Positions 1 to 34,912 of a DNA stretch of 34,912 bases are shown here, piece after piece. Numbering within the stretch: the stretch's first letter is position 1; each line of letters begins with the position of its first letter. Source of the stretch: a virus. A program made the position numbers and the translations under genes. The DNA lies in the IMG/VR virus record IMGVR_UViG_3300025896_000088, positions 1 to 34,912 of that record. One strand, written 5' to 3'. The notes under the pieces were generated by a model. It had not been told where the DNA came from and made no database searches. It saw only the letters and a list, made by a program, of their open reading frames with translations.

Positions 1-144
1 ACTAAATTCTGGGAGGGAACATTAAACAAGTATGATAAGTTTACATGTACACTTAATGTGAAAAGCCTACATAGGCAGGTTACATATCCCAAGGAATGGA
101 GTTTTAACTGGAGTGAATTAGATAATTTTATAGGAGATAAATAA
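1..144 (+). CDS. 3' end of a truncated gene, function unknown
   Basis: Frame 1 is open from the first base to a TAA at 142-144, giving the last 47 residues of a protein that begins outside the window. The tail is rich in aromatic and polar residues and ends FIGDK. I recognise no family. An SD-like AGGAG lies at its end, and the next gene follows 16 bases later in the same direction, so it probably belongs to the same plus-strand accessory operon. If the genome is circular, this would be a gene lying beyond the Gly-rich repeat at the right end of the window. Confidence 0.55.
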   Translation, partial: TKFWEGTLNKYDKFTCTLNVKSLHRQVTYPKEWSFNWSELDNFIGDK

Positions 145-160
145 AATTAGTTTAAATGAA

Positions 161-505
161 ATGTTATATTTAGCTAGTGTTGTTGATGGGATTAATTCTT
201 TTATTGTTATCTTTGTATTTTTAAGTGTGGCGATATTAGGAGTGATTATAATTTTCCTTATAACAAATGATTACGACACAGATGAGCAGAGTGTAATATA
301 TGCTAAAAAGTTAATTAAATATCCTGTAATAGGAGGGCTTATAATGCTTATTTCAAGTATATTTATCCCAAACTCTCAAACTATTTATTTAATGGCTGCA
401 AATAGTAAAGCACAAGAATTCAGTAATACGCAAATAGGTAAAGTAGCACAACAAGTATTATTATCTGAATTAAATAAAATTATTAATTCTAATGGGAGTA
501 AATGA
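161..505 (+). CDS. Small membrane protein with two hydrophobic segments
   Basis: 114 aa. A first membrane segment spans about residues 12-35 (FIVIFVFLSVAILGVIIIF) and a second about 53-70 (VIGGLIMLISSIFIP). Between them is an acidic stretch (NDYDTDEQS), and after them a soluble tail (YLMAANSKAQEF) that looks helical. The shape resembles small phage membrane proteins in which a second segment ending FIPS/FIPN is followed by a helical tail; that resemblance is from memory and function is unknown. An earlier ATG at 156 stops after five codons, so 161 is the start despite a weak ribosome site. The 3' end carries GGAG, which serves as ribosome site for the next gene. Confidence 0.75.
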   Translation: MLYLASVVDGINSFIVIFVFLSVAILGVIIIFLITNDYDTDEQSVIYAKKLIKYPVIGGLIMLISSIFIPNSQTIYLMAANSKAQEFSNTQIGKVAQQVLLSELNKIINSNGSK

Positions 506-506
506 A

Positions 507-707
507 ATGGAAGTTTTAACTATAGGAGAAGCAATAAAGTATCTAGAATCTAAAGGTGTACCAGAGTTATATGATGAAGGTTACTATTATTTAGAAGTAT
601 TGAATGATTTAGCTGAGTACGAACTTTTAACTAAAAAGAATATTGATTTCACATTAGAATTTATAGATCTTCATTTTAAGAAAGAGGAAGAAAATGACAA
701 AAGGTGA
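507..707 (+). CDS. Small acidic protein, unknown function; paralogous to the remnant at 32512-32566
   Basis: 66 aa starting MEVLTIGEAIKYLESKG. An upstream in-frame ATG at 492 exists, but the ATG at 507 has GGGAG 8 bases before it and follows the previous stop by one base, so I choose 507. The protein is probably all helical, with aromatic residues in the middle (YYYLE) and a charged end (LHFKKEEEN). Its last part shares 18 identical bases (667-684) with the remnant near 32541-32558. It overlaps the next gene by 14 bases. No family recognised. Confidence 0.75.
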   Translation: MEVLTIGEAIKYLESKGVPELYDEGYYYLEVLNDLAEYELLTKKNIDFTLEFIDLHFKKEEENDKR

Positions 708-951
708 AGCGTTAAAATTAGCAATTGATGGGCAAAAGGTTAGGCATTGGACTTGGAACGCTGAAGGTTATGAGTATATTTACTTTTATAAACATAAATT
801 TTTATATAATAATAAGATTGTTTTTATGGGACACGGTGATTTAAACACTGAAGGATGGGAAATATACCAAGAACCTAAAAATGAACTACAAGAACTAGCT
901 GAATATTTAGAAGTTGCTATTAAAAGATTAAAAAATATTAAAAATAAATAA
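694..951 (+). CDS. Small Tad2/DUF2829-like domain protein with C-terminal helix
   Basis: 85 aa. The N-terminal half follows the pattern of small phage proteins of the DUF2829 kind: GEALKLAIDGQKVRH, then W-N, an aromatic hairpin (YEYIYFY), and a closing D-x-N-x-x-GWEIYQEP. Members of DUF2829 include Tad2, a protein that binds the signal nucleotide of the Thoeris defence. The resemblance here is by motif only, so an anti-defence role is an inference. Residues about 63-84 form a helix (ELQELAEYLEVAIKRLKN) that recurs at the start of the next gene. GAGG lies 6 bases before the ATG. Confidence 0.7.
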   Translation: MTKGEALKLAIDGQKVRHWTWNAEGYEYIYFYKHKFLYNNKIVFMGHGDLNTEGWEIYQEPKNELQELAEYLEVAIKRLKNIKNK

Positions 952-974
952 TTTAGAAAGTTAAGGAGTAGATA

Positions 975-1361
975 ATGCAAGATAAACTACAAGAATTAGC
1001 AGATGTTTTATATAACGCAATTGTTAAGTTAAATGATATTAAAGACACACCCAGTGAAATAGAAAAGGAAGTGGAGGCACATTGTGATGCATTAAACAAA
1101 ATGGTAAATAGGATTGAGAAAATAGAAGAAAGTTTGAATAGTTTTAAAAAACCAGAACGTAAGTATATAGATTTCTTTGAAGCTATGCAAGCTATTAAAA
1201 ATGGGCATACTGTGATGAATGATCAAAGTCTATCAATAGTGTATTTTTTATATAGAAATAATATTATTTCCACCCTATTAGGTAGAAGGAGAGAATATGG
1301 GTATACATTTTTTAGTTTCACGGAATTAAACCCAACTACTAAATGGTGGATTGTTGAATAG
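975..1361 (+). CDS. Coiled-coil protein with degenerate Tad2/DUF2829-like C-terminal domain
   Basis: 128 aa. Residues 1-20 (KLQELADVLYNAIVKLNDIK) match the last helix of the preceding gene. Residues about 25-58 look like a coiled coil (NRIEKIEESLNSF). Residues about 62-128 look like the domain of the preceding gene: DFFEAMQAIKNGHTV, a YFLYRNN strand, and a final KWWIVE in place of GWEIYQ. The order helix-then-domain is the reverse of the neighbour, which suggests duplication of a repeating unit. AAGGAG precedes the ATG by 6 bases. Function unknown; it could bind a small ligand or be purely structural. Confidence 0.7.
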   Translation: MQDKLQELADVLYNAIVKLNDIKDTPSEIEKEVEAHCDALNKMVNRIEKIEESLNSFKKPERKYIDFFEAMQAIKNGHTVMNDQSLSIVYFLYRNNIISTLLGRRREYGYTFFSFTELNPTTKWWIVE

Positions 1362-1370
1362 GAGACGGAT

Positions 1371-1706
1371 ATGGTAAACGAACTATGCTTAGGCTACGAG
1401 CAAATAAAACAAATTATTAAAATTGCATCTCCGAATTTAGATCTTAGGAAGGAAATTACAAATCGTGATTTACAAATTGTGACACATATATTAAATCAAA
1501 AAATTACAGGGATGTTTTTTAATAAAAAACTTAATATATTGTTAAATAAAAAAGATGGTATTTATCCAATAATGGTAGGTAAAACTAAAGGGAAGTTTTA
1601 TATTAAAGATAATAAAATATATATAAACTTAACTAAAGAAATTAATGTTAGTAGGGTTAAGATAATTCAAATATCTAATAATACTATTCAAATAGAAGAG
1701 GTCTAA
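1371..1706 (+). CDS. Conserved-looking small protein, unknown function
   Basis: 111 aa, very lysine-, asparagine- and isoleucine-rich. The N-terminal part is helical (YEQIKQIIKIA); the C-terminal part is a run of short beta strands (GKFYIKDNKIYINL, VKIIQISNNTIQIEEV). The end resembles the end of the next protein (YFFINNNKIIATIIRVLDNDIYLEGV), so the two may be distant paralogues. The ribosome site is GGAGACGGAT just before the ATG. I recognise no family. Confidence 0.65.
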   Translation: MVNELCLGYEQIKQIIKIASPNLDLRKEITNRDLQIVTHILNQKITGMFFNKKLNILLNKKDGIYPIMVGKTKGKFYIKDNKIYINLTKEINVSRVKIIQISNNTIQIEEV

Positions 1707-1707
1707 C

Positions 1708-2010
1708 ATGCGTAATATGATTTGTTATAAAACAAATATATACTGCACATTAACTAAATGGGAACATTTAGACGGTACAGTTAAAATACTTGATATAAGT
1801 CAACCATTAAAGTTTACACATATGATTCCAGTTCCGTATAGATATCCTGAGGATTGTTCTATGGAAACAATAGTTAAAGAAATTCTTCATAATATTAAAG
1901 TTGCAGAATTACAAAAAATAGATGGGTGTTATTTTTTTATAAATAATAATAAAATTATTGCTACAATAATACGGGTTCTAGATAATGATATATATTTAGA
2001 GGGAGTTTAA
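1708..2010 (+). CDS. Small protein, unknown function, possible paralogue of the preceding gene
   Basis: 100 aa starting one base after the previous stop, with GAGG as ribosome site. It has a beta-rich N-terminus (YKTNIYCTLTKWEHLDGTVK), a proline/tyrosine patch (IPVPYRYPED), a central helix and a strand pair at the end (CYFFINNNKIIATII, DNDIYLEGV). The last 30 residues resemble those of the upstream neighbour. No catalytic motif is visible. Confidence 0.65.
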   Translation: MRNMICYKTNIYCTLTKWEHLDGTVKILDISQPLKFTHMIPVPYRYPEDCSMETIVKEILHNIKVAELQKIDGCYFFINNNKIIATIIRVLDNDIYLEGV

Positions 2011-2011
2011 C

Positions 2012-2188
2012 ATGCTAAACCTATTAACTAAAATAAACAATCAATATCAATATGATAATCTAACTAATAACAATGAACATGTTGATACTTATAAGATGTG
2101 TTATAATTGTAATAATACTACACTGTTTGATTATAAGAGTAGTGCAGTGCAAAATTGTGAAGTGTGTAATTTAATTTTTAAGGAGTAA
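2012..2188 (+). CDS. Zinc-ribbon small protein
   Basis: 58 aa. Two CxxC knuckles are visible, MCYNCN (Cys30, Cys33) and NCEVCN (Cys49, Cys52), 15 residues apart, as in minimal zinc ribbons. The N-terminal 25 residues are polar and Asn-rich. GAGGG lies 8 bases upstream of the ATG, inside the end of the previous gene, and the gene begins one base after that stop. Zinc ribbons of this kind commonly bind nucleic acid or protein; the partner cannot be read from the sequence. Confidence 0.7.
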   Translation: MLNLLTKINNQYQYDNLTNNNEHVDTYKMCYNCNNTTLFDYKSSAVQNCEVCNLIFKE

Positions 2189-2214
2189 GTAATTAATTAA
2201 GGGGTTAATTGAAG

Positions 2215-2301
2215 ATGAATAAACTACTAGAACTATCTATATTACTAACAGTATTATATATACCATTATGTTATGCTGATTTAATAACTAAATTTATATA
2301 A
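2215..2301 (+). CDS. 28-residue hydrophobic peptide (signal- or lysis-peptide-like)
   Basis: Encodes a short peptide starting MNKLLELS, with hydrophobic core ILLTVLYIPL and CYAD after it, which would fit a signal peptidase I site (YA|D). AAGGGG lies 10 bases before the ATG, and the next gene's ribosome site overlaps its stop. It could be a tiny membrane peptide, a lysis accessory protein, or a chance open frame; there is no lipobox match. Spacing to both neighbours favours a real gene. Confidence 0.45.
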   Translation: MNKLLELSILLTVLYIPLCYADLITKFI

Positions 2302-2311
2302 AGGGTATTAA

Positions 2312-2503
2312 ATGTTTAATAAAATAACTACACTACATAATAATGAGCAGTGCATATCATATTGCCACATAGATAAATATGACACTTATATTAAAGAATT
2401 ACAAGCTAATAGACACACTATACTCTCTAGTATAGAAGTGCCTAGTATTGACTTAGAATGGGTTGAGCCACCCGTTAAGTTCTCTGGATGGCGTTACTCC
2501 TAA
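2312..2503 (+). CDS. Small protein, unknown function, last gene of the left plus-strand cluster
   Basis: 63 aa with AAGGG 7 bases before the ATG. It contains a Cys-x3-Cys-x-His pattern (CISYCH) and ends in a tryptophan/proline-rich tail (EWVEPPVKFSGW). No family recognised. Its TAA (2501-2503) abuts the stop codon of the convergent late gene with no base between, and I see no terminator there. Confidence 0.65.
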   Translation: MFNKITTLHNNEQCISYCHIDKYDTYIKELQANRHTILSSIEVPSIDLEWVEPPVKFSGWRYS

Positions 2504-24325: not shown

Positions 24326-24354
24326 ATTGTATCCAAAGATTCAACAGTTGTCAA
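24326..24354 (-). promoter_or_regulatory. Sigma70-type promoter for the head/tail genes
   Basis: Reading the minus strand: TTGACA (24354-24349), 17 bases, TACAAT (24331-24326). The -35 box is perfect and the -10 box has one mismatch. It lies in the only gap of more than 100 bases in the late cluster (24260-24395), just after the terminase large gene, and would start transcripts near 24319. No copy of the early operator overlaps it. Confidence 0.75.
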
Positions 24355-24395
24355 ATAACAGGGTAAAAAGTATAATAGGGAATTAGTGAATGGAA

Positions 24396-25655: not shown

Positions 25656-26139
25656 CAGGTTTTTTAAATTCGATATTAATACTAACGTTTTGCTCTATTG
25701 GAGCACCATTAACACCTGATACTTCTTGAGTAATTTTATCACCATAAACTTTTGGTAATTCTTTGGATAGTTGCCATTTAGCAGTATCGATTTTTAATCT
25801 TTGATAAGCAACCCAACCCGGGTCGATTTTTCCATCTGGTGCATAATCGGGTGTTTCAGTAGTTAAATTTTCAAGTACATTTGCCTTAAAAGCCACTTGT
25901 AACAAGCGAACTCGCGCGTAATATTCTTGGCGTTTTGCATCTCTATTAATATATGCCCACATAGAACCTTGAGATACCTCTATCTCTTCGCAAGCCTTAC
26001 TATAAGAATACCCCGACTGCATAAGCTCACCAATTTCATTTAACATCTCATCGGTATATTGAACAGCAGGGGCTCTTTTTCTAGGCTTATCTTTTTCCTT
26101 AGGGAATGCAATAGCAGACATATCAACATCTTTACTCAT
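25645..26139 (-). CDS. Terminase small subunit
   Basis: 164 aa from the ATG at 26139 (AAGGGG 8 bases upstream); an earlier in-frame ATG at 26172 would overlap the previous gene more. The body has an HTH-like region (EMLNEIGELMQSGYSYSKAC, EIEVSQGSMWAYINRDA) that would bind the packaging site, a charged middle, and an Ile/Val-rich tail (NVSINIEFKKPDES). Adjacent to the large subunit, it is the recognition partner. Confidence 0.85.
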   Translation of the reverse strand: MSKDVDMSAIAFPKEKDKPRKRAPAVQYTDEMLNEIGELMQSGYSYSKACEEIEVSQGSMWAYINRDAKRQEYYARVRLLQVAFKANVLENLTTETPDYAPDGKIDPGWVAYQRLKIDTAKWQLSKELPKVYGDKITQEVSGVNGAPIEQNVSINIEFKKPDES

Positions 26140-26350
26140 AGTGATTCCCCTTAATACATGATTGAATACCACCTGTTATTAAACTTATTGCAAGCCCAAT
26201 AACAAAATATTCTAAATAATTAAAGCTACAATGTTTAACAAAACCTAATAGGCATAATGCTTTTACAACAATATATCCTGCAAATGGGAATACCCCAAAT
26301 AAGAAAAACAAGATCATACTTGCTGGAATTAAAAACCACATTTTACCCAT
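26132..26350 (-). CDS. Small membrane protein, class II holin candidate
   Basis: 72 aa, almost all hydrophobic: an N-terminal segment (MWFLIPASMILFFLFGVFPF), a second (AGYIVVKALCLLGFV) and a third (YFVIGLAISLITGGI), ending in a polar tail. In T7 the holin (gp17.5) lies just before the small terminase, and this gene is in that place, so a holin role is attractive but unproven. It overlaps the terminase small gene by 8 bases and the upstream 40-residue frame by 8. Confidence 0.65.
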   Translation of the reverse strand: MGKMWFLIPASMILFFLFGVFPFAGYIVVKALCLLGFVKHCSFNYLEYFVIGLAISLITGGIQSCIKGNHYE

Positions 26351-26465
26351 TATTATTTCTTTTAAAAAACCTACGAGAATATCTATCTTGTAAAACGAGG
26401 GATAAGCATTTCTTTTTAAGATAAGCTCTTTTACTAAATCCGCAAGTTATTCGCTGATAGATCAT
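26343..26465 (-). CDS. 40-residue very basic peptide gene, unknown
   Basis: Open frame starting MIYQRITCGF and ending FKRNNNG, with about eleven Arg/Lys residues (SKRAYLKKK, DRYSRRFFKR). It begins two bases after the previous stop and overlaps the next gene by 8 bases (ATGGGTAA), like its neighbours. No ribosome site is visible, so translation would be coupled. The basic nature suggests nucleic-acid binding; a chance frame is possible. Confidence 0.45.
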   Translation of the reverse strand: MIYQRITCGFSKRAYLKKKCLSLVLQDRYSRRFFKRNNNG

Positions 26466-26467
26466 TA

Positions 26468-26626
26468 CTATATGTGAAAACCTTTGTTATGAGCATCTAC
26501 AATTAGAGCAATCTTTTCTTCTAACTGCTTAATTCTTTCTGTTAAGAATTCTATCGGTTCAATAGTAACTGTTTCAATAGTTTCACCCTTAACATCTTCA
26601 ATATCTTCTTTTAATTTTTTAGCCAT
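26468..26626 (-). CDS. 52-residue acidic coiled-coil peptide, unknown
   Basis: Encodes MAKKLKEDIEDVKGETIE, then an EFLTERIKQLEEKIALIVDA heptad pattern, and ends NKGFHI. GGAG lies 7 bases before the ATG, inside the end of the previous gene, and only one base separates stop and start. The composition resembles the 54-aa coiled-coil protein at 27350-27514 (also with RIKQLE). It probably dimerises; function unknown. Confidence 0.7.
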   Translation of the reverse strand: MAKKLKEDIEDVKGETIETVTIEPIEFLTERIKQLEEKIALIVDAHNKGFHI

Positions 26627-26627
26627 T

Positions 26628-27011
26628 TTAATCTCCAATAGTTGTTTTCTCTAACTGGATTATACTATAGAAATGTTGCCATCCGTCAAATAATTTTTCT
26701 TTTATTGGCTCATAAAGTATGTTCGTACATTTTTTTAAATGTTCTACATAATGGTCATAATCGATTAAATAAAAAGAACTCCCTAAACAAAAGTAATAAC
26801 TCAGGTCATGAATACCGTTTATTTGCGTTTTAACGCGTGCTATACGCTTTTGAGGTGGTCGCCTATGGCATAGGTCATCCTGGTCAATTGAAACGCTTCC
26901 TAGCTCGTTTATGAAGACATCATTCCAACCACAATCACCTTTCTCATGTATAATTCTTTCATAACCTGCTGATTCTAAAAGGTTTTTTATTTTTAAGAGT
27001 TGTTTATCCAT
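26628..27011 (-). CDS. Protein of unknown function in the early minus-strand operon
   Basis: 127 aa. Begins with an amphipathic helix (DKQLLKIKNLLESAGY), then GWNDVFINELGSVSIDQDD, a His-Arg-Arg patch, strands (FYLIDYDHYVEHL) and a last helical part. No catalytic motif recognised. The ATG overlaps the previous gene by 8 bases. Confidence 0.65.
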   Translation of the reverse strand: MDKQLLKIKNLLESAGYERIIHEKGDCGWNDVFINELGSVSIDQDDLCHRRPPQKRIARVKTQINGIHDLSYYFCLGSSFYLIDYDHYVEHLKKCTNILYEPIKEKLFDGWQHFYSIIQLEKTTIGD

Positions 27012-27363
27012 TGTACTCGCCTAGGTTATGCATGTCTGCTATTATCTTTGCTTGTGCTGTAGATACTAAATCTATGGCTATTTCTTTTTCTTTGAACATG
27101 AGAGAAAATTTCATCTTGTTATAGAACTGCTTGATAAAGTAATTGTTATTAGCTGATCTCATGTAAACCCATTCAAGCCTAATATAGTTAGGGTATTTAT
27201 CCAATATGCCATTAAACTTAATCGCTAGTTCTTTATTAGCTCCTCTAAACTTGGATAAGGTACGCTTGTTTATTTTGGTAGCTGATTCTAATTCAGTAAT
27301 ATCCTCATCAGATAATACCTGATTAGAGATCATGTCTTCTATAAGTCGTTTAAACATTACCAT
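27004..27363 (-). CDS. XRE-type HTH regulator candidate
   Basis: 119 aa. Residues about 18-52 fit a lambda-repressor-like HTH: SDEDITELESAT (helix 2), INKRTLSKFRGAN (recognition helix position), KELAIKFNGILDKYP, and then IRLEW, which matches the P-x-I-x-x-x-W ending common in phage XRE regulators. The C-terminal half has strands (KFSLMFKEKEIAIDLV). If it is a DNA binder it is the best candidate in the window for the protein acting at the three operators. The match is by eye and may be wrong. The ATG overlaps the previous gene by 14 bases; AAAGG lies 9 bases before it. Confidence 0.5.
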   Translation of the reverse strand: MVMFKRLIEDMISNQVLSDEDITELESATKINKRTLSKFRGANKELAIKFNGILDKYPNYIRLEWVYMRSANNNYFIKQFYNKMKFSLMFKEKEIAIDLVSTAQAKIIADMHNLGEYNG

Positions 27364-27514
27364 TGCTATTTACCTTTTCTAATTGTTTAATTCTATCTTT
27401 TAACTGAATGATTTCTATTTCTAGGACTTCAATTAAATTCCAAAGCTTTTCTTTTTCTGTTAGTTGTATTAGCCTATCATCTTCTAACGCTTCATCAAAT
27501 ATAGATCTTCTCAT
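27350..27514 (-). CDS. 54-residue coiled-coil protein, unknown
   Basis: Starts MRRSIFDEALEDDRLI at the ATG at 27514, with AAGGGAG 11 bases before; a TTG 36 bases upstream is unlikely. The second half is a clear heptad helix (LWNLIEVLEIEIIQLKDRI, KQLEKVN). It lies two bases after the DnaC-like gene. It might regulate or bridge the loader; nothing direct supports that. Confidence 0.65.
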   Translation of the reverse strand: MRRSIFDEALEDDRLIQLTEKEKLWNLIEVLEIEIIQLKDRIKQLEKVNSNGNV

Positions 27515-27516
27515 GT

Positions 27517-28299
27517 TTATTCTTTCTCCCTTAATCTGTAATCTTCCCAATTACAAAGGAATATTGAATAATTCTCTTTAAATCTGGAATATAATGCATC
27601 ATTGATTGATTCTTTAAATTGAGTTGTATTTAAATTTGAAATGATGAAAGTTGGTAATAAGAAATTATAACGATGATTTACAATTTCAAATAGTAGATTG
27701 CTTTTAAAGTCAGAACCTTGTACTCCGAACTCATCTATTATTAAAAAATCGATATTGAGAATCTCTTCAAATTGTGTAAAATCTCTGATTTTTATATCAG
27801 TCAATTTATAATATTGAATGTATTTGCAATTAACATCGTTATACATATGAAGAAAATTATCAATACATGCAAAAGCAAGATGTGTTTTACCAGTGCCAGT
27901 ATTTCCAAGTAATAAAACATTATTTTTATGATCTATCTTTCTTAATTGGGTAACTACAATCTCTGATTTCTCATTTGTAATGAAGTTCTCGAAAGTAGAA
28001 TCTGCATAACGAGGTGGTACATTAGCTTTAATCTTTGCTTTTTTTATTCTTAAAAGCGATGCATCTTTTTCTAATTCTTCAAATTTACATATTTTACACT
28101 CTTTATTTTGAAAGCTAATAGTTTCAATTGGATGCTTTTCACAAGGATGCGTTTTAAATGTGTTCTCTTCTACATAACGATCAATAAGAGTATCGATTCG
28201 TTCTATTGGGATATCTCCACATTCTTTTAAGCTTTCTATATGTTGTAGCTGAGATTCTGTTAAAAGTGATATTCTAAGATCAATAGGGTTATTTAACAT
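27517..28299 (-). CDS. DnaC-like helicase loader (AAA+ ATPase)
   Basis: 260 aa. Walker A is GNTGTGKT (132-139), Walker B is FLIIDE (185-190), and a sensor-like IISN follows. A zinc-type cluster Cys53, His56, Cys68, Cys71 (CEKHPI, CKICK) precedes the ATPase, and VPPRYADSTFENF is the typical lead-in of the DnaC/IstB family. It would load the host replicative helicase, since no phage helicase is seen. The ATG is 11 bases after the initiator stop. Confidence 0.88.
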   Translation of the reverse strand: MLNNPIDLRISLLTESQLQHIESLKECGDIPIERIDTLIDRYVEENTFKTHPCEKHPIETISFQNKECKICKFEELEKDASLLRIKKAKIKANVPPRYADSTFENFITNEKSEIVVTQLRKIDHKNNVLLLGNTGTGKTHLAFACIDNFLHMYNDVNCKYIQYYKLTDIKIRDFTQFEEILNIDFLIIDEFGVQGSDFKSNLLFEIVNHRYNFLLPTFIISNLNTTQFKESINDALYSRFKENYSIFLCNWEDYRLREKE

Positions 28300-28310
28300 T
28301 TTAAACTTTC

Positions 28311-29132
28311 TTAAAAATCATTGATTGAAAAATCAAGAGAATTACACCTATGTAATGCTTCTGATGTTGATTGCTGAGGTTTTTCATTCTGATAGATAAG
28401 TGCTTTATCTAGCTTTTCACCAAACTTATTAGTTCTAGCTAAAACTGATATTGCTAGATTCCTACTTTGTCTAAACCACGGATTCAATATCATGTAGTCA
28501 ATTACTTTTTTAATATCGTCTAACGTGTAATCTTTTAAGATTGTTTCTAAGCTTTTAATTATCTGCTTATCTCCTTTTAAATTCTGTTTTGTTTTTTCAT
28601 TCCAATATTCATAAATTTCATTCACACAATCCGAGGCGTTAGCCGATGGGATATTTTCTTTTTGTTTATTTTTTAAAGAGTATTTAATAGAAGAGTCTTC
28701 TTTAATAGAAGAGTCTTTTTTAATAGAAGAGTATTTTGTGTCTACTTTTGAGTCGATAGGGGTGTCTACTTTTGAGTCGATAGGGGTGTCTACTTTTGAG
28801 TCGATAGGGGTGTCTACTAATGTGAGATAATTAGTTGTGAGTCTAAACCCTATAAAAACCCCACCATCTTTACTTATAAGCTTTTCCATAATATTGCATT
28901 TAATAAATTTATTAAACCTTCTAGCTACAATCTCTCTATTCGTTATACCTAAAATCGGTAAATCATCAATAATAGCTTGATATTTAACCCAGCAATAATC
29001 TTTTTCATCGTTATAAATTTTCATCATCTTAGGTTGGAAGTCTACAAACCATCTTAAAATCAAAGCATCTATAGTATCCAACCCATATTCAACAAGTTTT
29101 TGCTGAGAAAAACCCTCAATTGTATATTTCAT
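28311..29132 (-). CDS. Replication initiator (lambda O-like, winged helix) with repeats in its linker
   Basis: 273 aa. The N-terminus is a winged-helix-like region (DTIDALILRWFVDF, NREIVARRFNKFIKCNIMEK, FIGFRL). Residues about 107-130 are three copies of VDTPIDSK, followed by SSIKKD/SSIKED/SSIKY. The C-terminal part (VNEIYEYWNEKTKQNLKG, LKDYTLDDIKKVIDYM, WFRQSRNLAISVL) resembles the conserved phage replication C-terminal domain. The DnaC-like loader is the next gene, as with lambda O and P. AAGGGGG precedes the ATG. Confidence 0.85.
   Translation of the reverse strand: MKYTIEGFSQQKLVEYGLDTIDALILRWFVDFQPKMMKIYNDEKDYCWVKYQAIIDDLPILGITNREIVARRFNKFIKCNIMEKLISKDGGVFIGFRLTTNYLTLVDTPIDSKVDTPIDSKVDTPIDSKVDTKYSSIKKDSSIKEDSSIKYSLKNKQKENIPSANASDCVNEIYEYWNEKTKQNLKGDKQIIKSLETILKDYTLDDIKKVIDYMILNPWFRQSRNLAISVLARTNKFGEKLDKALIYQNEKPQQSTSEALHRCNSLDFSINDF
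28683..28736. repeat. 18-bp tandem repeat, three copies
   Basis: TTTAATAGAAGAGTCTTC at 28683-28700, the same with a final T at 28701-28718, and TTTAATAGAAGAGTATTT at 28719-28736. On the coding strand these encode the SSIK-D repeats. Confidence 0.9.
28741..28812. repeat. 24-bp tandem repeat, three exact copies (iteron-like)
   Basis: Each unit starts TCTACTTTTGAGTCGATAGG and ends GGTG. Copies lie at 28741-28764, 28765-28788 and 28789-28812 with no difference, followed by a partial unit TCTACT. They encode VDTPIDSK. Exact identity at every wobble position suggests either recent duplication or selection on DNA. Confidence 0.95.
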
Positions 29133-29176
29133 ATTTTAAATCCCCCTTCAATATATCCACACTCATTCTTACTCAT
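29129..29176 (-). CDS. Possible 15-residue leader peptide
   Basis: Encodes MSKNECGYIEGGFKI. GGAG lies 7 bases before its ATG, within the end of the HNH gene; it overlaps that gene by 8 bases and its TGA overlaps the initiator ATG (ATGA). It contains the initiator's ribosome site. It could couple translation of the two genes, or be chance. Confidence 0.3.
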   Translation of the reverse strand: MSKNECGYIEGGFKI

Positions 29177-29597
29177 CTTTATACTCCATTAATTTACTAT
29201 TTTTATGAAACAACTCATGGCATTTTTGACAAAGACATAATATATCATCCTCCCAATAAATATGCTCTTGACAATGACGGCTATATGTACGATGATGAGC
29301 ATTTAATTTAACAGAAGATGAACATATCTCACATTTATAATCAGCTTTATCTTTAACCCATTCACTTATTATTTTCCAATACGGAGTTTGTAAAAATTCT
29401 TTATAACATAAATGCCCTAAATAATCATTAAAATTAATATCATATCCTAAAATCATATTTAATAATTTAAATAACTCTTTATTATCTTTTATATTTTTTA
29501 AATCATCACAAATATTAGTGGGATCGCACAATCTAATTACACAATCCTCAAACATATAAATCCTGAGCGAACAATTATTTATAATTTTATTTATCAT
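29169..29597 (-). CDS. HNH endonuclease
   Basis: 142 aa. The C-terminal half is a recognisable HNH domain: FLQTPYWKIISEWVKDKADY, CEIC, VKLNAHHRTYSRH, then WEDDILCLCQKCHELFHK. The N-terminal 60 residues are acidic and Asn-rich with no known domain. Its transcription would pass through the terminator just upstream (29614-29643). AAAGG lies 7 bases before the ATG. It is probably a homing enzyme, or a nuclease for DNA processing at the replication locus. Confidence 0.85.
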   Translation of the reverse strand: MINKIINNCSLRIYMFEDCVIRLCDPTNICDDLKNIKDNKELFKLLNMILGYDINFNDYLGHLCYKEFLQTPYWKIISEWVKDKADYKCEICSSSVKLNAHHRTYSRHCQEHIYWEDDILCLCQKCHELFHKNSKLMEYKDE

Positions 29598-29613
29598 TTA
29601 TATTTCCTTTTAT

Positions 29614-29643
29614 AAAATAAAAAACCCTCTCTAGTAGAAGGGT
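29614..29643 (-). terminator. Intrinsic terminator ahead of the HNH gene
   Basis: In minus-strand RNA: ACCCU, 10-base loop region with one extra U-G pair, AGGGU, then UUUUUUAUUUU (29624-29643 stem, U-tract 29614-29624). The stem is short (5 pairs plus a wobble) but the U-tract is good. Confidence 0.65.
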
Positions 29644-29732
29644 CGAATCATCTAAAAGAAAGGGCTATTTAATGAAGTAAACTTCGTTTTAATGTTTCGA
29701 CCAACACAATAACGAAATTTACTTTAAGTCAT
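29617..29732 (-). ncRNA. Structured non-coding RNA / attenuator candidate
   Basis: This gap between coding genes is packed with pairing. A 14-pair stem (13 Watson-Crick, one G-U) joins 29711-29724 with 29675-29688. Its loop holds GGUCGAA (29702-29696), which can pair with UUCGACC (29647-29641), giving a pseudoknot. That second strand shares three bases with the terminator stem, so the two structures exclude each other. A TATAAT on the minus strand at 29739-29734 could start a roughly 110-base RNA, although its -35 (TTTATA) is poor. Confidence 0.5.
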
Positions 29733-29739
29733 AATTATA

Positions 29740-30090
29740 CTATCTTTTCCTTATCTTATAAACATTTTTTTCTTGTTGTTCCTCTGTTTCATGTCTCATT
29801 TTATTAGCCTCGGCTTGCTTCTCTAATAAAAACTCTCTTACGTAAAATCTTCTCTCCATTTCTTTAACACGATTTCTACATTTAGGGCATCCCAACCAAT
29901 AAGATTTAAGACTTGGTAATAAATGCTCTTCGTCTTCATAATCAGCATTGCAAGCATAGCAATGTCTAGTAGCATTTTTAACAACATGAGGAAACTTAAA
30001 AATAATCTCATCTTTTTTGCCATAACCATTAGTTGCCATGCATTTCATTTCAACTTTTAAATCTTGAAACGGGATTTTAAAATCATTCAT
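29740..30090 (-). CDS. Zinc-finger protein, unknown function
   Basis: 116 aa. CYAC (residues about 43-46) and CPKC (about 68-71) could hold a zinc ion. The C-terminal half is a long charged helix (RVKEMERRFYVREF, EKQAEANKMRHETEEQQEKN). The ribosome site AAAGGAGG is the strongest in the early operon. Such small zinc proteins are often transcription or nuclease partners; the role is unknown. Confidence 0.7.
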   Translation of the reverse strand: MNDFKIPFQDLKVEMKCMATNGYGKKDEIIFKFPHVVKNATRHCYACNADYEDEEHLLPSLKSYWLGCPKCRNRVKEMERRFYVREFLLEKQAEANKMRHETEEQQEKNVYKIRKR

Positions 30091-30115
30091 TTATATACCT
30101 CCTTTCTATAAAAAA

Positions 30116-30325
30116 TTAACCTAAAACATACAATTTAACAATCTTAGATAATGGCAATCTAGCTTTCTTAATATTACCACTTAATAAATGCTTATGTTCT
30201 CTATAAACTACTTTCTTACCGTAACGCGTTGGTAAGCACACATCTATATAATCCGCTGTTAGATTGTTTTCTATCTGTATCTTAAAACCCAATTGAGTTA
30301 ATAAATTCATTGTTGATACTTTCAT
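30116..30325 (-). CDS. Small basic protein, unknown function
   Basis: 69 aa. It has a helical start (MNLLTQLGFKIQI), DVCLPTRYGKKVVYREHKHL and a basic end (KKARLPLSKIVKLYVLG). AGGAG lies 9 bases before the ATG. No family recognised. It lies 25 bases upstream of the zinc-finger gene and 17 bases downstream of the exported-protein gene. Confidence 0.6.
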   Translation of the reverse strand: MKVSTMNLLTQLGFKIQIENNLTADYIDVCLPTRYGKKVVYREHKHLLSGNIKKARLPLSKIVKLYVLG

Positions 30326-30342
30326 TTTTAATACTCCTAAAA

Positions 30343-30723
30343 TTATTTACTTTGACTCTCATTATAATCGATATGATCGCACATGTGTTTAAGTTCTAAA
30401 TATTTTTTATATTCAGATTCCTTTTCCATTTTTCCCAACTTATCTATTTCTGTGTTTTGTTTATCTACACAAGCTTGATATATTTTAGTTTCACGATCAT
30501 GTTCTCTTTGTAATCTACGACGATCTTCGGCTGCGTAACTCTCAATTTTCTTAGCATCTTCTTGGTATTTATCCATAATTGAATTAGTTACAGATTCGTA
30601 ATCGTCGCAATAACCACAACCCACATCTGGTACACTAGAAACTGGTGCAGATATAGGGATATCTAACGAAACCGCAACAGCCAAATTACTTGCAAACATT
30701 AATGTTATTAAAAGTGTTTTCAT
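30343..30723 (-). CDS. Exported (periplasmic) protein with signal peptide, first leftward early gene
   Basis: 126 aa. Residues 1-18 are a typical signal peptide (MKTLLITLMFASNLAVA) with an AVA|S cut site. The mature part has a Cys-x2-Cys (GCGYCDD) and long charged helices (QREHDRETKIYQACVDK, KEYKKYLELKHMC in part), with four cysteines in all that could form disulphides. As the first gene from a strong early promoter, it might alter the host surface or periplasm, for example superinfection exclusion; this is inference. AAAAGG is 8 bases upstream. Confidence 0.75.
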   Translation of the reverse strand: MKTLLITLMFASNLAVAVSLDIPISAPVSSVPDVGCGYCDDYESVTNSIMDKYQEDAKKIESYAAEDRRRLQREHDRETKIYQACVDKQNTEIDKLGKMEKESEYKKYLELKHMCDHIDYNESQSK

Positions 30724-30761
30724 TTTATTTGCCTTTTTAAAAGTTTTTAACCCACATCGCC

Positions 30762-30791
30762 ATTATAGCAATTCACTATAGTAGGTGTCAA
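30762..30791 (-). promoter_or_regulatory. Leftward early promoter (perfect sigma70 boxes)
   Basis: On the minus strand TTGACA (30791-30786), 18 bases, TATAAT (30767-30762). Both hexamers are perfect. The operator 30764-30780 covers the -10 box and the spacer. Confidence 0.88.
30764..30780. promoter_or_regulatory. Operator O1
   Basis: TATAGCAATTCACTATA: differs at two positions from the symmetric site at 34075-34091. It lies in the spacer and -10 box of the leftward promoter. Confidence 0.75.
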
Positions 30792-30813
30792 GTAAAATTA
30801 TTACAATAAATAT

Positions 30814-30843
30814 TTGCATATTGCTATTGCATTATGCTATAGT
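30814..30843 (+). promoter_or_regulatory. Rightward early promoter
   Basis: TTGCAT (30814-30819), 18 bases, TATAGT (30838-30843). It drives the recombination genes that start at 30887, and is back to back with the leftward promoter, the -35 boxes being 22 bases apart. Confidence 0.75.
30825..30841. promoter_or_regulatory. Operator O2
   Basis: TATTGCATTATGCTATA: three differences from the symmetric site, with the same distance to the -10 box as O3. A weaker half-site TTGCTATT lies next to it at 30821-30828. Confidence 0.65.
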
Positions 30844-30886
30844 ATCGATGTGAATTAAAAAAACATTTATTTAAAAGGATATTATC

Positions 30887-31855
30887 ATGGCACTTAAAAT
30901 AACAAAGACACAAGAAGCAATCAAAGTAGAGAATTTAATAATGGTTATTTTCGGGCAACCCGGAACTGGTAAGAGTAGTTTAGCATTCAGTGCGAATAAA
31001 CCTTTATTATTAGACTTTGATAATGGTGTACATAGAACTATTGGGCGTAAAGATTGCGTTCAAGTTGCAAGCTGGAAAGACGTTGCAGATTTAAATGAGA
31101 AAGATTTAAAAGACTATGATACGATTATCATTGATACCGTTAGTAAAGCTCTTGATTCTTTATCTGTAGAATTAATTATTAACGACCCTAAGCTGGGTAA
31201 ACGCAGTGGGGAGCTAGGGTTAAATGGTTATGGAGCATTAGGTAATGCATTCAAAGCATTTTTAAATAAAATTAGAAGCTTTAAAAAAGATATTATTTTA
31301 ATCGCTCAAGTAACAGAAGATAAAGACGGTGAGCAAACTTGTATGCGTATTAAGACATCAGGTAAACAAGCACGTGAAACAATAAGTGAAGCATCAGATA
31401 TGATAGGTTATTACCATATGCAAGGGAAACAACGCATCCTTGATTTTAACCCAACTGAAACACATACGGGTAAAAACTGGGCATTACTTCCAGAGTTAGA
31501 GATACCTCACTTATTAGAAGAAACTACATACTTAGCTGATTTAATTAATGATGTTAAAGAAAAGATTAATACTAAGACAGCAGCGCAAGAGAAAGCCGAA
31601 GAGGACTTTAATGCTGCGCTAGAATTAATTAATCACGTAAATACTGCAAGCGATTGCACCTCTTTAACTAAGCATGGTGTTATTCAAAATAATGTTGTAT
31701 TAAAACAAAAGCTTATGGATAAAGCTAAAGAATTAAATTTTATTTTCGACTCTAAGTTAAAAGCTTTTACTTCTAAAGAAATTGAAATTAATCCAGAAGT
31801 TGCAGCACAAGCAGATTCTTATTTTGAGAAAGTAGATGATGCTAAATTACAATAA
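30887..31855 (+). CDS. Sak4-like RecA-fold ATPase (phage recombination)
   Basis: 322 aa. Walker A is GQPGTGKS (23-30) in MVIFGQPGTGKSSL, Walker B is DTIIIDTV (78-85), and SFKKDIILIAQV looks like the following strand. The family (AAA_24/Sak4 type) helps single-strand annealing and works with an SSB, which is encoded nearby. The C-terminal third (from about 225) is a helical tail. AAAGGA lies 8 bases before the ATG. The 3' end overlaps the exonuclease gene by 20 bases. Confidence 0.87.
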   Translation: MALKITKTQEAIKVENLIMVIFGQPGTGKSSLAFSANKPLLLDFDNGVHRTIGRKDCVQVASWKDVADLNEKDLKDYDTIIIDTVSKALDSLSVELIINDPKLGKRSGELGLNGYGALGNAFKAFLNKIRSFKKDIILIAQVTEDKDGEQTCMRIKTSGKQARETISEASDMIGYYHMQGKQRILDFNPTETHTGKNWALLPELEIPHLLEETTYLADLINDVKEKINTKTAAQEKAEEDFNAALELINHVNTASDCTSLTKHGVIQNNVVLKQKLMDKAKELNFIFDSKLKAFTSKEIEINPEVAAQADSYFEKVDDAKLQ

Positions 31856-32510
31856 ATTTATGGGTGTTACTCGTTTAGATGAGTACACTCAATTTTGTAG
31901 TGGGTTGTTATATAACTTAGGCGATAACCCACCTGAATACACGCCAGAGTTATTTGTTCGTAAGCTATTAAAGCTAGACCCACCATCTTTAAAAATGTAT
32001 GCTGGGATTGCAGTTCATAAAGCTGTAGAATTAATGCAAGATGGTGTTATTCATAATGGTACGATCGTTGATGAGTGGACTATTAATTGCAATAAGGATA
32101 TTATAATTGAGACTCCAGATTGTAGAGAGTTAGCTATTCAAAAAAGTATCGATGATGTAACAATATTCGGGCGTGTTGATAGTTTAGACAGTAGCACTGT
32201 TCATGACTTTAAAACTACCGGAAGTTATAACTATGAGAAATATCAAGCAAGTTATCAATGGCGAACATATCTATGGATATTAAATTATGATCGATTTATT
32301 TATGATGTTGCAATTACTAAAACTGACGAGGATAAAAAGATTGTAGATATCATGGATTATAAGAAAATTGAATTAAGAAGATATCCGAATTTAGATAATG
32401 ATGTTGAAAATAAAATCAGGGATTATGTGTATTGCTTAAAACAATTAGCACCATTGATTTTAAAAGTAGCGAGAGAAAATAATATTGACTGGAAATATAG
32501 GAGTAAATAA
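31836..32510 (+). CDS. PD-(D/E)XK exonuclease (Cas4/RecB-like)
   Basis: 224 aa. Motifs: AGIAVHKAVEL with His61, FGRVDSLD with Asp115, TVHDFKTTG with Asp124 and Lys126, and YQWRTYLW with Gln141 and Tyr145. This is the set of Cas4/RecB-type nucleases that degrade one strand for recombination. It is coupled to the Sak4-like gene. The first ATG (31836) and the second (31839) share a GAGAAAG ribosome site; the later ATG at 31860 has none. Confidence 0.87.
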   Translation: MMLNYNKFMGVTRLDEYTQFCSGLLYNLGDNPPEYTPELFVRKLLKLDPPSLKMYAGIAVHKAVELMQDGVIHNGTIVDEWTINCNKDIIIETPDCRELAIQKSIDDVTIFGRVDSLDSSTVHDFKTTGSYNYEKYQASYQWRTYLWILNYDRFIYDVAITKTDEDKKIVDIMDYKKIELRRYPNLDNDVENKIRDYVYCLKQLAPLILKVARENNIDWKYRSK

Positions 32511-32511
32511 A

Positions 32512-32566
32512 ATGGAACATTCAATATTTAGAAGCACTAAATCTTCATTTTAAGAAAGGTAATTAA
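32512..32566 (+). pseudogene. Remnant of a paralogue of the 66-aa left gene
   Basis: GGAGTAAATAAAATGGAA matches the start of the 507-707 gene nearly base for base. A short frame (MEHSIFRSTKSSF) follows, and the other frame reads LEALNLHFKKGN, close to the end of that gene (LEFIDLHFKKEEE). Eighteen bases (32541-32558) are identical. The middle is missing and the frame is shifted, so this is a deletion remnant. Confidence 0.6.
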
Positions 32567-32567
32567 G

Positions 32568-32732
32568 ATGCGTTTAAATGAAATGTCTACTGAGGATTTA
32601 GTTAAGTTAAAAATATCATTATCTACTCCTCAAGAAATTTTTACTTATGGAAGAGCACAAATGATGGAACATGCAAGTTTTTTATTGTTACGAGTAACGA
32701 TAGAATTAATGAAAAGAAAGACAAGAGTGTAA
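32568..32732 (+). CDS. Small helical protein, unknown function
   Basis: 54 aa: MRLNEMSTEDLVKLKISLS, then a mid part (PQEIFTYGRAQMMEHASF) and a basic helical end (LLRVTIELMKRKTRV). GAAAGG lies 9 bases before the ATG. No family recognised. It sits between the exonuclease and the winged-helix-like gene, so it may be a recombination accessory protein. Confidence 0.65.
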   Translation: MRLNEMSTEDLVKLKISLSTPQEIFTYGRAQMMEHASFLLLRVTIELMKRKTRV

Positions 32733-32793
32733 ATAATAACAAAAGCATAATTTTTTTATAATAGTTGGATAATTTTAAAAAGGAAGTAACTAA

Positions 32794-32991
32794 ATGAAAA
32801 GTAAAATAATAGATCTATATAAATTTATAGAACAAGGTAAAACACGTAGTGCAATGAATGACTACTTGACTAAAACATACGGCTGTGGTTTTACAACTGC
32901 ACGCTTATATATTGATATACTTGTGTTGTTTAATGTAATTATTAAAAATAAAGAAGGCTTATTTATTCCGGGAGTAAAAGGAAATGTTTAA
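32794..32991 (+). CDS. Small winged-helix-like protein, possible DNA binder
   Basis: 65 aa. The order helix, turn, helix (TRSAMNDYLTKTYGCGF, TTARLYIDILVLFNVI) followed by a short hairpin (IIKNKEGLFIPG) resembles a compact winged helix. AAAAAGGAAG lies before the ATG. A run of seven T and TATAAT lies just upstream, without a -35 box. It overlaps the SSB gene by 8 bases. It is a second, weaker candidate for a regulator. Confidence 0.6.
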   Translation: MKSKIIDLYKFIEQGKTRSAMNDYLTKTYGCGFTTARLYIDILVLFNVIIKNKEGLFIPGVKGNV

Positions 32992-33349
32992 ATTAATCTG
33001 TACTGGCAATGTAGGAAAGGCTCCAACTCAAAGAGCAAATAACGCAGGTGAAACCTTTGTAACTTTTAGCTTGGGTGTTTCAATAGGAACTAAACAAAAC
33101 CCCAAAACTAACTGGGTTGAAATAAGTTGTAATGGGAAATTAGCAGAGGTTGCAGCTAAGTACATTGTGGTTGGAAGTAAGATCTTAGTTGAGGGATTTC
33201 CTACCGCTAATGCTTATATCAATAAAGAAAATAAAGCTGTTGGAACTCTTAGAATTAGTGCCAATAATATTGAGTTTTTAAGTTCTAATAAAAGCGAGCA
33301 TACCCAAGAAGTGAACGGGAATCTTAAAGATAATGAACCACCATTTTAA
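32984..33349 (+). CDS. ssb: Single-stranded DNA-binding protein
   Basis: 121 aa. An OB-fold of SSB type: MFKLICTGNVGKAP at the start, FVTFSLGVSIG, a central WVEISCNGKLAEVAAKYIVV, and GSKILVEGFP. The tail is acidic and ends DNEPPF, like the DDDIPF tip that binds host partner proteins. It would coat single strands for the Sak4-like ATPase and for replication. GGAG and AGGAA lie before the ATG. Confidence 0.9.
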   Translation: MFKLICTGNVGKAPTQRANNAGETFVTFSLGVSIGTKQNPKTNWVEISCNGKLAEVAAKYIVVGSKILVEGFPTANAYINKENKAVGTLRISANNIEFLSSNKSEHTQEVNGNLKDNEPPF

Positions 33350-33358
33350 AGGTTTATT

Positions 33359-33601
33359 ATGAGTACCGATCAATTCGAAAGGAAGCTATTAGAATATGGA
33401 TTTATTAGACATCCTTTAAAAGATATGGCTGAATACTTTGATTTCACTATAAAGAAAAAAACAGAAGACATAAGATTTCAAGAGCTGATGTCTCAAGCAA
33501 ATTGTGATTATAACTTTAACATTAGCTCTAAACATTTTAACTCTATAGATGAAATTGAAGAATGGATATTAATATCATTAAGAAAGTATTTACGTCAATA
33601 A
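33359..33601 (+). CDS. Small acidic protein, unknown function
   Basis: 80 aa, with a helical start (DQFERKLLEYGFI), an acidic middle and SIDEIEEWILISLRKYL at the end. AAAGG lies 8 bases before the ATG. It lies between SSB and the VRR-NUC gene, so a role in recombination is possible. No family recognised. Confidence 0.65.
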   Translation: MSTDQFERKLLEYGFIRHPLKDMAEYFDFTIKKKTEDIRFQELMSQANCDYNFNISSKHFNSIDEIEEWILISLRKYLRQ

Positions 33602-33611
33602 AGGAATACTT

Positions 33612-34016
33612 ATGCAGTATATAGAATTTCAACATCAAAAAGCTCTATTCCAGTGGGCTAAACACCCACTAGTTTTAAAAGAATATCCAGAACTAGAAAT
33701 GCTCTATGCTAATAGGAATACTCAACGTGCTGCTAGTAAGGCACAAGCAGCACGCATTAAAGCTGAGGGTAGCAAAGCTGGAGTGCCTGATATATTCCTA
33801 CCAATTGCTCAATGTCACTATAATGGCTTATATATAGAAATGAAAGCCCCAGATCGAAAACCTAAAACATCTAGGGGTAAAGGTGGGCTAAGTCCTGAAC
33901 AAATAGAATTTTTCCCTAAATTAGAAGAACGCGGTTATTTAGTTGAAGTATGTTATAGCTGGGAAGAAGCCAAAACTGTTTTAATCAATTATATAACTGG
34001 CGCTTATAACCCTTGA
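33612..34016 (+). CDS. VRR-NUC nuclease
   Basis: 134 aa. Motifs: EFQHQKALFQWA, SKAGVPDIFLP (the Asp of GxPD), LYIEMKAP (Glu and Lys), LSPEQIEFF, and a last strand GYLVEVCYSWEEA. VRR-NUC enzymes cut structured DNA such as flaps or Holliday junctions. With the upstream recombination genes, it would resolve branched replicating DNA before packaging. AAGGAATACTT precedes the ATG. Confidence 0.9.
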   Translation: MQYIEFQHQKALFQWAKHPLVLKEYPELEMLYANRNTQRAASKAQAARIKAEGSKAGVPDIFLPIAQCHYNGLYIEMKAPDRKPKTSRGKGGLSPEQIEFFPKLEERGYLVEVCYSWEEAKTVLINYITGAYNP

Positions 34017-34063
34017 TAATACTACATTCTTTGCACTGCACAATAAATAGATTAAGAAAAGAT

Positions 34064-34093
34064 TTGACTTACATTATAGCAATTTGCTATAGT
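34064..34093 (+). promoter_or_regulatory. Promoter for the far-right accessory genes
   Basis: TTGACT (34064-34069), 18 bases, TATAGT (34088-34093). The operator O3 covers spacer and -10. Confidence 0.85.
34075..34091. promoter_or_regulatory. Operator O3, the most symmetric site
   Basis: TATAGCAATTTGCTATA: two perfect 8-bp arms (TATAGCAA / TTGCTATA) around one base, the form of a dimeric repressor site. Confidence 0.85.
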
Positions 34094-34148
34094 AATGTTG
34101 TAGAAGAAAATTAATGATTGTTTATTGATAATTTTAAAAGGTCTAATA

Positions 34149-34295
34149 ATGAAAAAAATAATTAAAATAATTTTACTAATAATATTTGCTATTGTAATTG
34201 GGTATCAATTAATTAAAGATAATGAATTAGAAGAATTAAATCAAGCATTTTTTTACCATGTGATAGAAGCTGGTTTTATAAATGGGAGTAAATAA
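34149..34295 (+). CDS. 48-residue membrane-anchored protein
   Basis: A single membrane segment (MKKIIKIILLIIFAIVIGYQ) is followed by a short acidic part (DNELEELNQAF) and ends INGSK. AAAAGG lies before the ATG. It is the first gene from the operator-controlled promoter. No family recognised. Its 3' end (GGGAGTAAATAA) carries the ribosome site of the next gene. Confidence 0.7.
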   Translation: MKKIIKIILLIIFAIVIGYQLIKDNELEELNQAFFYHVIEAGFINGSK

Positions 34296-34296
34296 A

Positions 34297-34713
34297 ATGA
34301 AAATAAAAGAAATATTTAAAAAGGAAAATGGAATGAAAGAAGTATTATTAAATAAAATTATCGATAAAATATTAGCTGATGACTCAGTTACATCAACAGA
34401 GAATACGAATAAAATAGATTCTTATTTTTTAAACAAAAAAGTTATTATTAGAACTTATTCCGCAGGAGTTCATTTTGGTACTTTAATCGAAAAATCAAAA
34501 GATGAAGTTATTTTAAAAGATTCTCGGAGGCTATGGTATTGGCAAACAACGAATAAAGGGATATCATTAAATGAAGTAGCGAATACAGGACTACACAACG
34601 ATAGTAAAGTATGCGCTTCTATTGGTTTACTTTGGTTACAGGCTATAGAAATTTTAATATGTACCAATGATGCTATAGAAAGTATTGAGGGGAAAAATGA
34701 GTATAAAGCATAA
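34297..34713 (+). CDS. DUF6948-like protein
   Basis: 138 aa from the ATG at 34297 (GGGAG upstream; an ATG at 34282 lies before the previous stop). The C-terminal 90 residues have the pattern I recall for DUF6948: VIIRTYSAGVHFGTL, EVILKDSRRLWYW, SLNEVANTG, and an end LQAIEILICTNDAIESIEG. The first 45 residues are a charged helix. The function of this family is unknown to me. It overlaps the Gly-rich gene by 17 bases. Family recognition is from memory and unverified. Confidence 0.72.
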   Translation: MKIKEIFKKENGMKEVLLNKIIDKILADDSVTSTENTNKIDSYFLNKKVIIRTYSAGVHFGTLIEKSKDEVILKDSRRLWYWQTTNKGISLNEVANTGLHNDSKVCASIGLLWLQAIEILICTNDAIESIEGKNEYKA

Positions 34714-34912
34714 AATAGTTAAAAGTGGCTGGGGCAATGGCGATGGTGATGGCAGTGGCAATGGCTGGGGCAGTGGCAGGGGTGATGGCAGGGGCTATGG
34801 CAGGGGCTATGGCTGGGGCGATGGTGATGGCAGTGGCGATGGCGATGGCTGGGGCGATGGAGATGGCAGTGGCAGTGGCTGGGGCAGTGGCAGTGGCAGT
34901 GGCTGGGGCAGT
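34697..34912 (+). CDS. Gly-X repeat protein, open at the window end (partial)
   Basis: At least 72 residues: MSIKHKIVKSGW, followed by glycine at every second position with Asp, Ser, Trp, Asn, Arg or Tyr between (GNGDGDGSGNGWGSG). The reading frame stays open to the last base. GAGGGG lies before the ATG. Similar Gly-repeat proteins accompany DUF6948-type genes as far as I remember. It might be a flexible, low-complexity phase-forming or adhesive protein; no domain is visible. Confidence 0.72.
   Translation, partial: MSIKHKIVKSGWGNGDGDGSGNGWGSGRGDGRGYGRGYGWGDGDGSGDGDGWGDGDGSGSGWGSGSGSGWGS
34727..34912. repeat. GGC-NNN hexanucleotide repeat, high GC
   Basis: About 30 units of GGC or GGT/GGG/GGA followed by a variable codon, in an otherwise AT-rich genome. 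The window ends inside it, so the array may be longer, and assembly may have broken here. Confidence 0.9.

Follow-up and report, generated by a model that had tools for sequence, protein, structure and literature searches.

In phage lambda, the OR1/PR and OL1/PL regions, read here from the lambda record, each carry a 17-bp site of two-fold symmetry between the -35 and -10 hexamers, and bases 1-4 of the -10 are also the last four of the operator. The divergent early promoters of lambda are under one repressor. The Arc operator of P22 at Pant, TAGA-N5-TCTA, also lies between -35 and -10. The lytic mycobacteriophage D29 has no intact repressor gene but retains the sites at which a repressor binds (PMC5712189).

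The window analysed here is the entire 34,912-base IMG/VR record IMGVR_UViG_3300025896_000088, with a G+C content of 34% (66% AT). It contains three palindromic sites lying over promoters, which we read as putative operators of one dimeric repressor that would shut off both early promoters and the accessory promoter. Judged on sequence, this reading is reasonably probable, with a small phage protein as the preferred binder.

Gene layout and the three palindromic sites

The record encodes tailed-phage proteins (a T7/BcepC6B-like portal, an Sf6-like small terminase, a tail tube and internal virion proteins) and early proteins (a Sak4-like annealing protein, an exonuclease-like protein, SSB, a VRR nuclease, a replication initiator and a DnaC-like loader). 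None of the family scans turned up a recognisable integrase or repressor in the record. There is one leftward and one rightward gene block, which part at 30724-30886 (163 bp), and nothing is coded in the gap between the two early operators. The features concerned are as follows.

26132-30723, minus strand: leftward early operon, its end presumed, with small genes continuing to the terminase
27517-28299, minus strand: DnaC-like loader, leftward early operon
28311-29132, minus strand: replication initiator, leftward early operon
29169-29597, minus strand: HNH, leftward early operon
29740-30090 and 30116-30325, minus strand: ORFs of the leftward early operon
30343-30723, minus strand: ORF of the leftward early operon with a signal-peptide-like start
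30762-30791, minus strand: leftward early promoter, TTGACA (30791-30786), 18-bp spacer and TG-extended TATAAT (30767-30762); 12/12, the best in the scanned stretch
30764-30780, minus strand: putative operator O1, TATAGTGAATTGCTATA, at the leftward early promoter; arms 6/8, 2 differences from O3
30814-30843, plus strand: rightward early promoter, weak -35 TTGCAT (3/6), 18-bp spacer and extended -10 TGC-TATAGT
30825-30841, plus strand: putative operator O2, TATTGCATTATGCTATA, at the rightward early promoter; arms 7/8, 3 differences from O3
30887-34016, plus strand: rightward early operon, with the Sak4-like annealing protein, a PD-(D/E)XK exonuclease-like protein, small ORFs, SSB and VRR-NUC
34064-34093, plus strand: accessory-operon promoter, TTGACT, 18-bp spacer and TG-extended TATAGT; 10/12
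34075-34091, plus strand: putative operator O3, TATAGCAATTTGCTATA, a perfect palindrome with 8-bp arms
34125-34912, plus strand: start of the accessory operon, with a small membrane-protein-like ORF, a DUF6948 protein and a GSG-repeat ORF reaching the right end
1-2503, plus strand: further part of the accessory operon, presumed to continue here across the record ends, where the end reading frames are in phase

The GSG-repeat ORF (34697-34912) runs open for exactly 72 codons up to the right end, positions 1-144 are open in frame 1, and the two are in phase. A circular or circularly permuted genome is therefore probable, with the record cut inside a low-complexity GSG-repeat gene and the accessory operon extending across the presumed join to about 2503. 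Two adjacent direct-repeat arrays (18 bp x 3.1 and an exact 24 bp x 3.4) were observed at 28676-28818 inside the replication-initiator gene, as the iterons of lambda ori lie inside gene O, and may possibly represent the replication origin.

The initial annotation had given the coordinates and sequences of the three sites correctly, with the perfect arms at O3 and the 2 and 3 differences at the others, and had rightly placed two of the three promoters in divergent orientation. Its description of all three as sigma70-like promoters with 18-bp spacers held for the spacer throughout, and fell short at the -35 of the rightward promoter, which would depend on its extended -10 since its -35 is merely TTGCAT. 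Each 17-bp site spans about -25 to -9, and its final four bases coincide with bases 1-4 of the -10. Both divergent early promoters thus bear the palindrome, with O1 and O2 61 bp apart centre to centre. The TATAGC-N5-GCTATA core in lambda phase is exact at O3 and degenerate at O1 and O2.

When TATAGCAATTTGCTATA was used as the sole query on both strands with up to 3 mismatches, only the O1, O2 and O3 places were found. The search gave 5 strand-wise matches against a shuffle mean of 0.89, and 1 of 100 shuffles reached 5. The two best further matches to this query both fell inside the 163-bp divergent gap in the same phase to the -10. A matrix built from the three sites gave top record scores of 22.9, 19.5 and 19.2 bits, followed by 12.8 and 10.3, which leaves one good site per promoter and no tandem array; because this matrix was trained on the three sites, the single-site query is the fairer test. 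In the whole record, 17-mers with at least 6/8 matching arms that end on TATA[AG]T occurred at O1, O2 and O3 only.

Because an extended -10 (TGCTATAAT) makes up part of the right half of the palindrome, the left arm was also compared by itself. It matched at 7/7, 6/7 and 5/7 positions (background frequencies 1.9e-4, 3.2e-3 and 2.4e-2), versus 0-3/7 at the remaining extended -10 sequences in the record. A strict count of promoter plus palindrome found two of the three sites, because the rightward -35 is TTGCAT; the expectation was 0.125 per simulated genome, and 6 of 400 simulations reached two. Record scans found no operator site in the head/tail promoter region near 24326, as had been claimed. 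An overlapping, opposed promoter-like pair was seen at 24326-24376 (TTGACA-17-TACAAT leftward and TTGTCA-17-TATAAT rightward).

A matrix scan of the genome and its relatives had been proposed, with absence of the sites from related phages named in advance as an argument against a regulon. The genome part of the scan set the three sites well above the next score, and in the relatives the sites were not conserved. No DNA-level relatives of the early region were found in the phage collection, structural relatives identified via the portal gave 0 sites in 30 searched records, 80 loci of Sak4 relatives held no close operator match, and the divergent gaps of nine long relative contigs held no promoter of comparable strength. 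Since the compared relatives are distant (36-57% protein identity) and mostly GC-rich, the missing conservation counts only weakly.

The TATAGC palindrome in other phages

IMG/VR was scanned for TTGAC-Nx-TATAGC-N5-GCTATA, where x=5 gives a 17-bp spacer, x=6 the spacing of the window and x=12 an off-phase control. Matching contigs numbered 59, 6 and 3, respectively, so that the 18-bp spacing of the window is not itself enriched (6 contigs versus 3 in the control). The 59 contigs (L269-L326 and L104) fall into about 35 independent groups, and promoter spacing alone, as estimated from unselected phage loci, explains about 2.3-fold. Among the 35 group representatives, symmetry reaches +/-9 (G...C) and is at background beyond; because of the G/C pair at +/-9, base 5 of the -10 is a C, contrary to the promoter consensus. 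The end of the symmetry at +/-9 and the off-consensus C argue for a protein site and not for back-to-back promoters. Together, these counts and sequence properties mark TATAGC-N5-GCTATA in lambda phase as a genuine class of phage operator. A literature search for the operator sequence found nothing.

Some members of the class are flanked by an XRE repressor gene and a Cro-like gene that diverge from each other, namely those of L086 (HTH_3), L101 (HTH_3/Phage_CI with a YdaS/HTH_3 partner) and L104 (an S24 repressor with a YdaS-type protein). Others are linked to a small ribbon-helix-helix protein. When eight such proteins were combined into a profile, it matched 12 loci, all of them operator-bearing (L274, L277, L284, L294/L306, L296, L297, L305, L308, L316, L322 and L324), and 0 of 277 other loci (2.7 Mb). 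As eight of the twelve were seeds, the independent part of this result is the four extra loci (L297, L316 and the L294/L306 pair) and the absence elsewhere. In 11 of the 12, the gene is on the same strand as the site and 0-0.6 kb downstream of it, and almost all of the linked sites read GTATAGC-N5-GCTATAC. We consider the protein and the GTATAGC-N5-GCTATAC promoter a probable phage repressor-operator pair on the strength of this linkage. The protein, of which the rough pattern is M.KRQLNIR.S....L..L...YG.TQ....AIDRLYQ, is mostly missed by Pfam, and its best natural relative in the PDB is CopG, a weak match (E 0.045).

Many of the 59 contigs have neither an XRE nor a ribbon-helix-helix gene within reach. 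In L312 and L321, which form one phage group, at least 4 promoters have the same palindrome-like site, and one site is a nearly perfect 37-bp palindrome. In the species-genome collection, the promoter-phased pattern gave 25 scattered matches, a few of which adjoin XRE genes (L106, L112 and L123). At L106 and L112, from Bacillota and Terriglobia metagenome genomes, the operator adjoins the same type of XRE-like regulator (...LSQAYLSQ.E.G...), possibly a chromosomal user of the motif.

The binding protein and the alternative readings

The initial annotation had noted no obvious repressor gene, and the same conclusion was reached here: neither HTH_3 nor RHH_1 matched anything in the record even at E<=10, and the XRE and ribbon-helix-helix profiles built in this work found nothing there. 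Applied to the fetched loci, the XRE profile retrieves 115 XRE/Cro-like proteins. Searches of the record with HTH_3, our profile or Pfam/PHROGs/NCBIfam found neither cI nor cro of the XRE (HTH_3) superfamily, and those with the profiles or RHH_1 found no ribbon-helix-helix gene just downstream of the sites. A ribbon-helix-helix protein was rejected as the binder in the window, given that no profile gave a match.

Two proteins had been put forward as candidate binders.

27004-27363, minus strand: candidate 1, without an XRE signature; single-sequence model with pLDDT 51 and no fold match
32794-32991, plus strand: candidate 2, 65 aa, three helices predicted; pLDDT 64 and no fold match

Candidate 1 had been called XRE-like, for which Pfam, PHROGs, NCBIfam and our XRE profile gave no support, and it had no homologues in phages or IMG/VR. 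The proposal of candidate 2 as a winged-helix protein fared no better; the fetched loci contain no relatives of it, and its model is of low confidence. Both scored as background with the XRE profile, and the single-sequence AlphaFold models of both gave no Foldseek match below E 0.2.

The initial annotation had also read the sites as a three-promoter regulon under one palindrome-binding regulator, and this is well supported by their phase, symmetry and position and by the independent operator class in other phages. A repressor dimer on the 17-bp site would cover the spacer and the -10 and would exclude RNA polymerase, as lambda repressor and Cro do at OR1/PR and OL1/PL. The leftward early operon (replication), the rightward early operon (recombination) and the accessory operon would then be shut off in coordination. 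Repression, a single cognate protein and the identity of that protein are the parts of this reading that we infer. As binder we prefer a small protein of the phage itself that would shut off early expression, with a role like that of Cro or Arc and a sequence that is not recognisable, because three well-kept sites without an integrase or repressor remnant imply a benefit to the phage; a binder supplied by the host or a prophage is less likely. More tentatively, the sites may be read by a phage protein of a DNA-binding type outside the families now known, or by a repressor of the host or a prophage, kept as a deliberate brake. If the brake were real, a phage without a lysogeny module would be switched by the repressor of another element.

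A related account, which we hold to be rather unlikely, is repression in trans. Here a host regulator, or a CI-type repressor from a resident prophage, would act on the kept operators of a phage that is related to temperate phages and lacks a repressor. It would explain why the record has no recognised repressor gene, D29 is a precedent, and where members of the class are linked to XRE genes the repressor is a CI/XRE protein. In temperate phages whose Sak4-exonuclease pair is related (for example L170), which are distant relatives, cI and a cro-like gene lie between the replication and recombination sides, where the window has only 163 bp. Sites that serve only a foreign repressor would, however, be expected to decay, and no remnant of an integrase or repressor was recognised. 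Nor is the motif enriched in Bacteroidia chromosomes, which may not be of the host's group (47 matches versus 41 for the reversed control in 198 sampled genomes), and the promoter-phased matches in the species-genome collection number just 25.

The palindromes might instead be symmetric extended -10 elements, with TGCTATA[AG]T on both strands driving bidirectional transcription, as each holds an extended -10, or nearly one, on either strand, and one palindrome in L312 and L321 is flanked on both sides by -35-like hexamers. This we regard as improbable. In the window there is no -35-like hexamer at the correct distance on the opposite side, and among the 35 independent sites the symmetry as a rule stops short of the -35, with the G/C pair at +/-9 off the -10 consensus. 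Chance resemblance of three extended -10 promoters is easier in AT-rich DNA, and TGCTATA[AG]T is itself a promoter sequence; the left-arm matches and the fall of the two best further matches within the divergent gap nevertheless make coincidence highly improbable.

The preferred reading, operators for a small phage repressor, describes a compact and testable regulon in an uncultivated phage that has no recognisable repressor, with a handful of small early genes in which to look for the binder. As TATAGC-N5-GCTATA in lambda register recurs in unrelated phages, beside at least 2 structural classes of regulator, the operator offers a handle for naming unknown phage repressors.

Comparison with known systems

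D29 keeps L5-type sites, and the window likewise has sites without a recognisable repressor gene. In comparison with its identifiable temperate relatives D29 has a recent deletion, and its stoperators are asymmetric, whereas the window has no known temperate parent. The TAGC-N5-GCTA of the window is N5-paired like the P22 Arc operator, which has another half-site and lies about 3 bp further upstream of its -10; the window has no Arc-like protein.

At L086, L101 and L104 the half-sites are as in the window, and at the listed L101 and L104 sites the sigma70 -10 register is also the same. Unlike the window, these loci have genes beside the sites for the XRE/S24 repressor and for a partner resembling YdaS or Cro. 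The ribbon-helix-helix-linked promoters (L274, L277, L284 and others) share the core palindrome over spacer and -10, and have a 17-bp spacer, the G/C pair at +/-9 and the downstream ribbon-helix-helix gene, none of which the window has.

Compared with lambda, which has cI and cro, the window lacks either gene, and it has TATAGC half-sites in place of the TATCAC/TACCTC types, an 18-bp and not a 17-bp spacer, one site per promoter and not three in tandem, and early operators 61 bp apart versus about 2.4 kb between OL1 and OR1. The 17-bp two-fold site nonetheless lies between -35 and -10 as at OR1/PR and OL1/PL, its register to the -10 is identical, and the divergent early promoters share one type of site.
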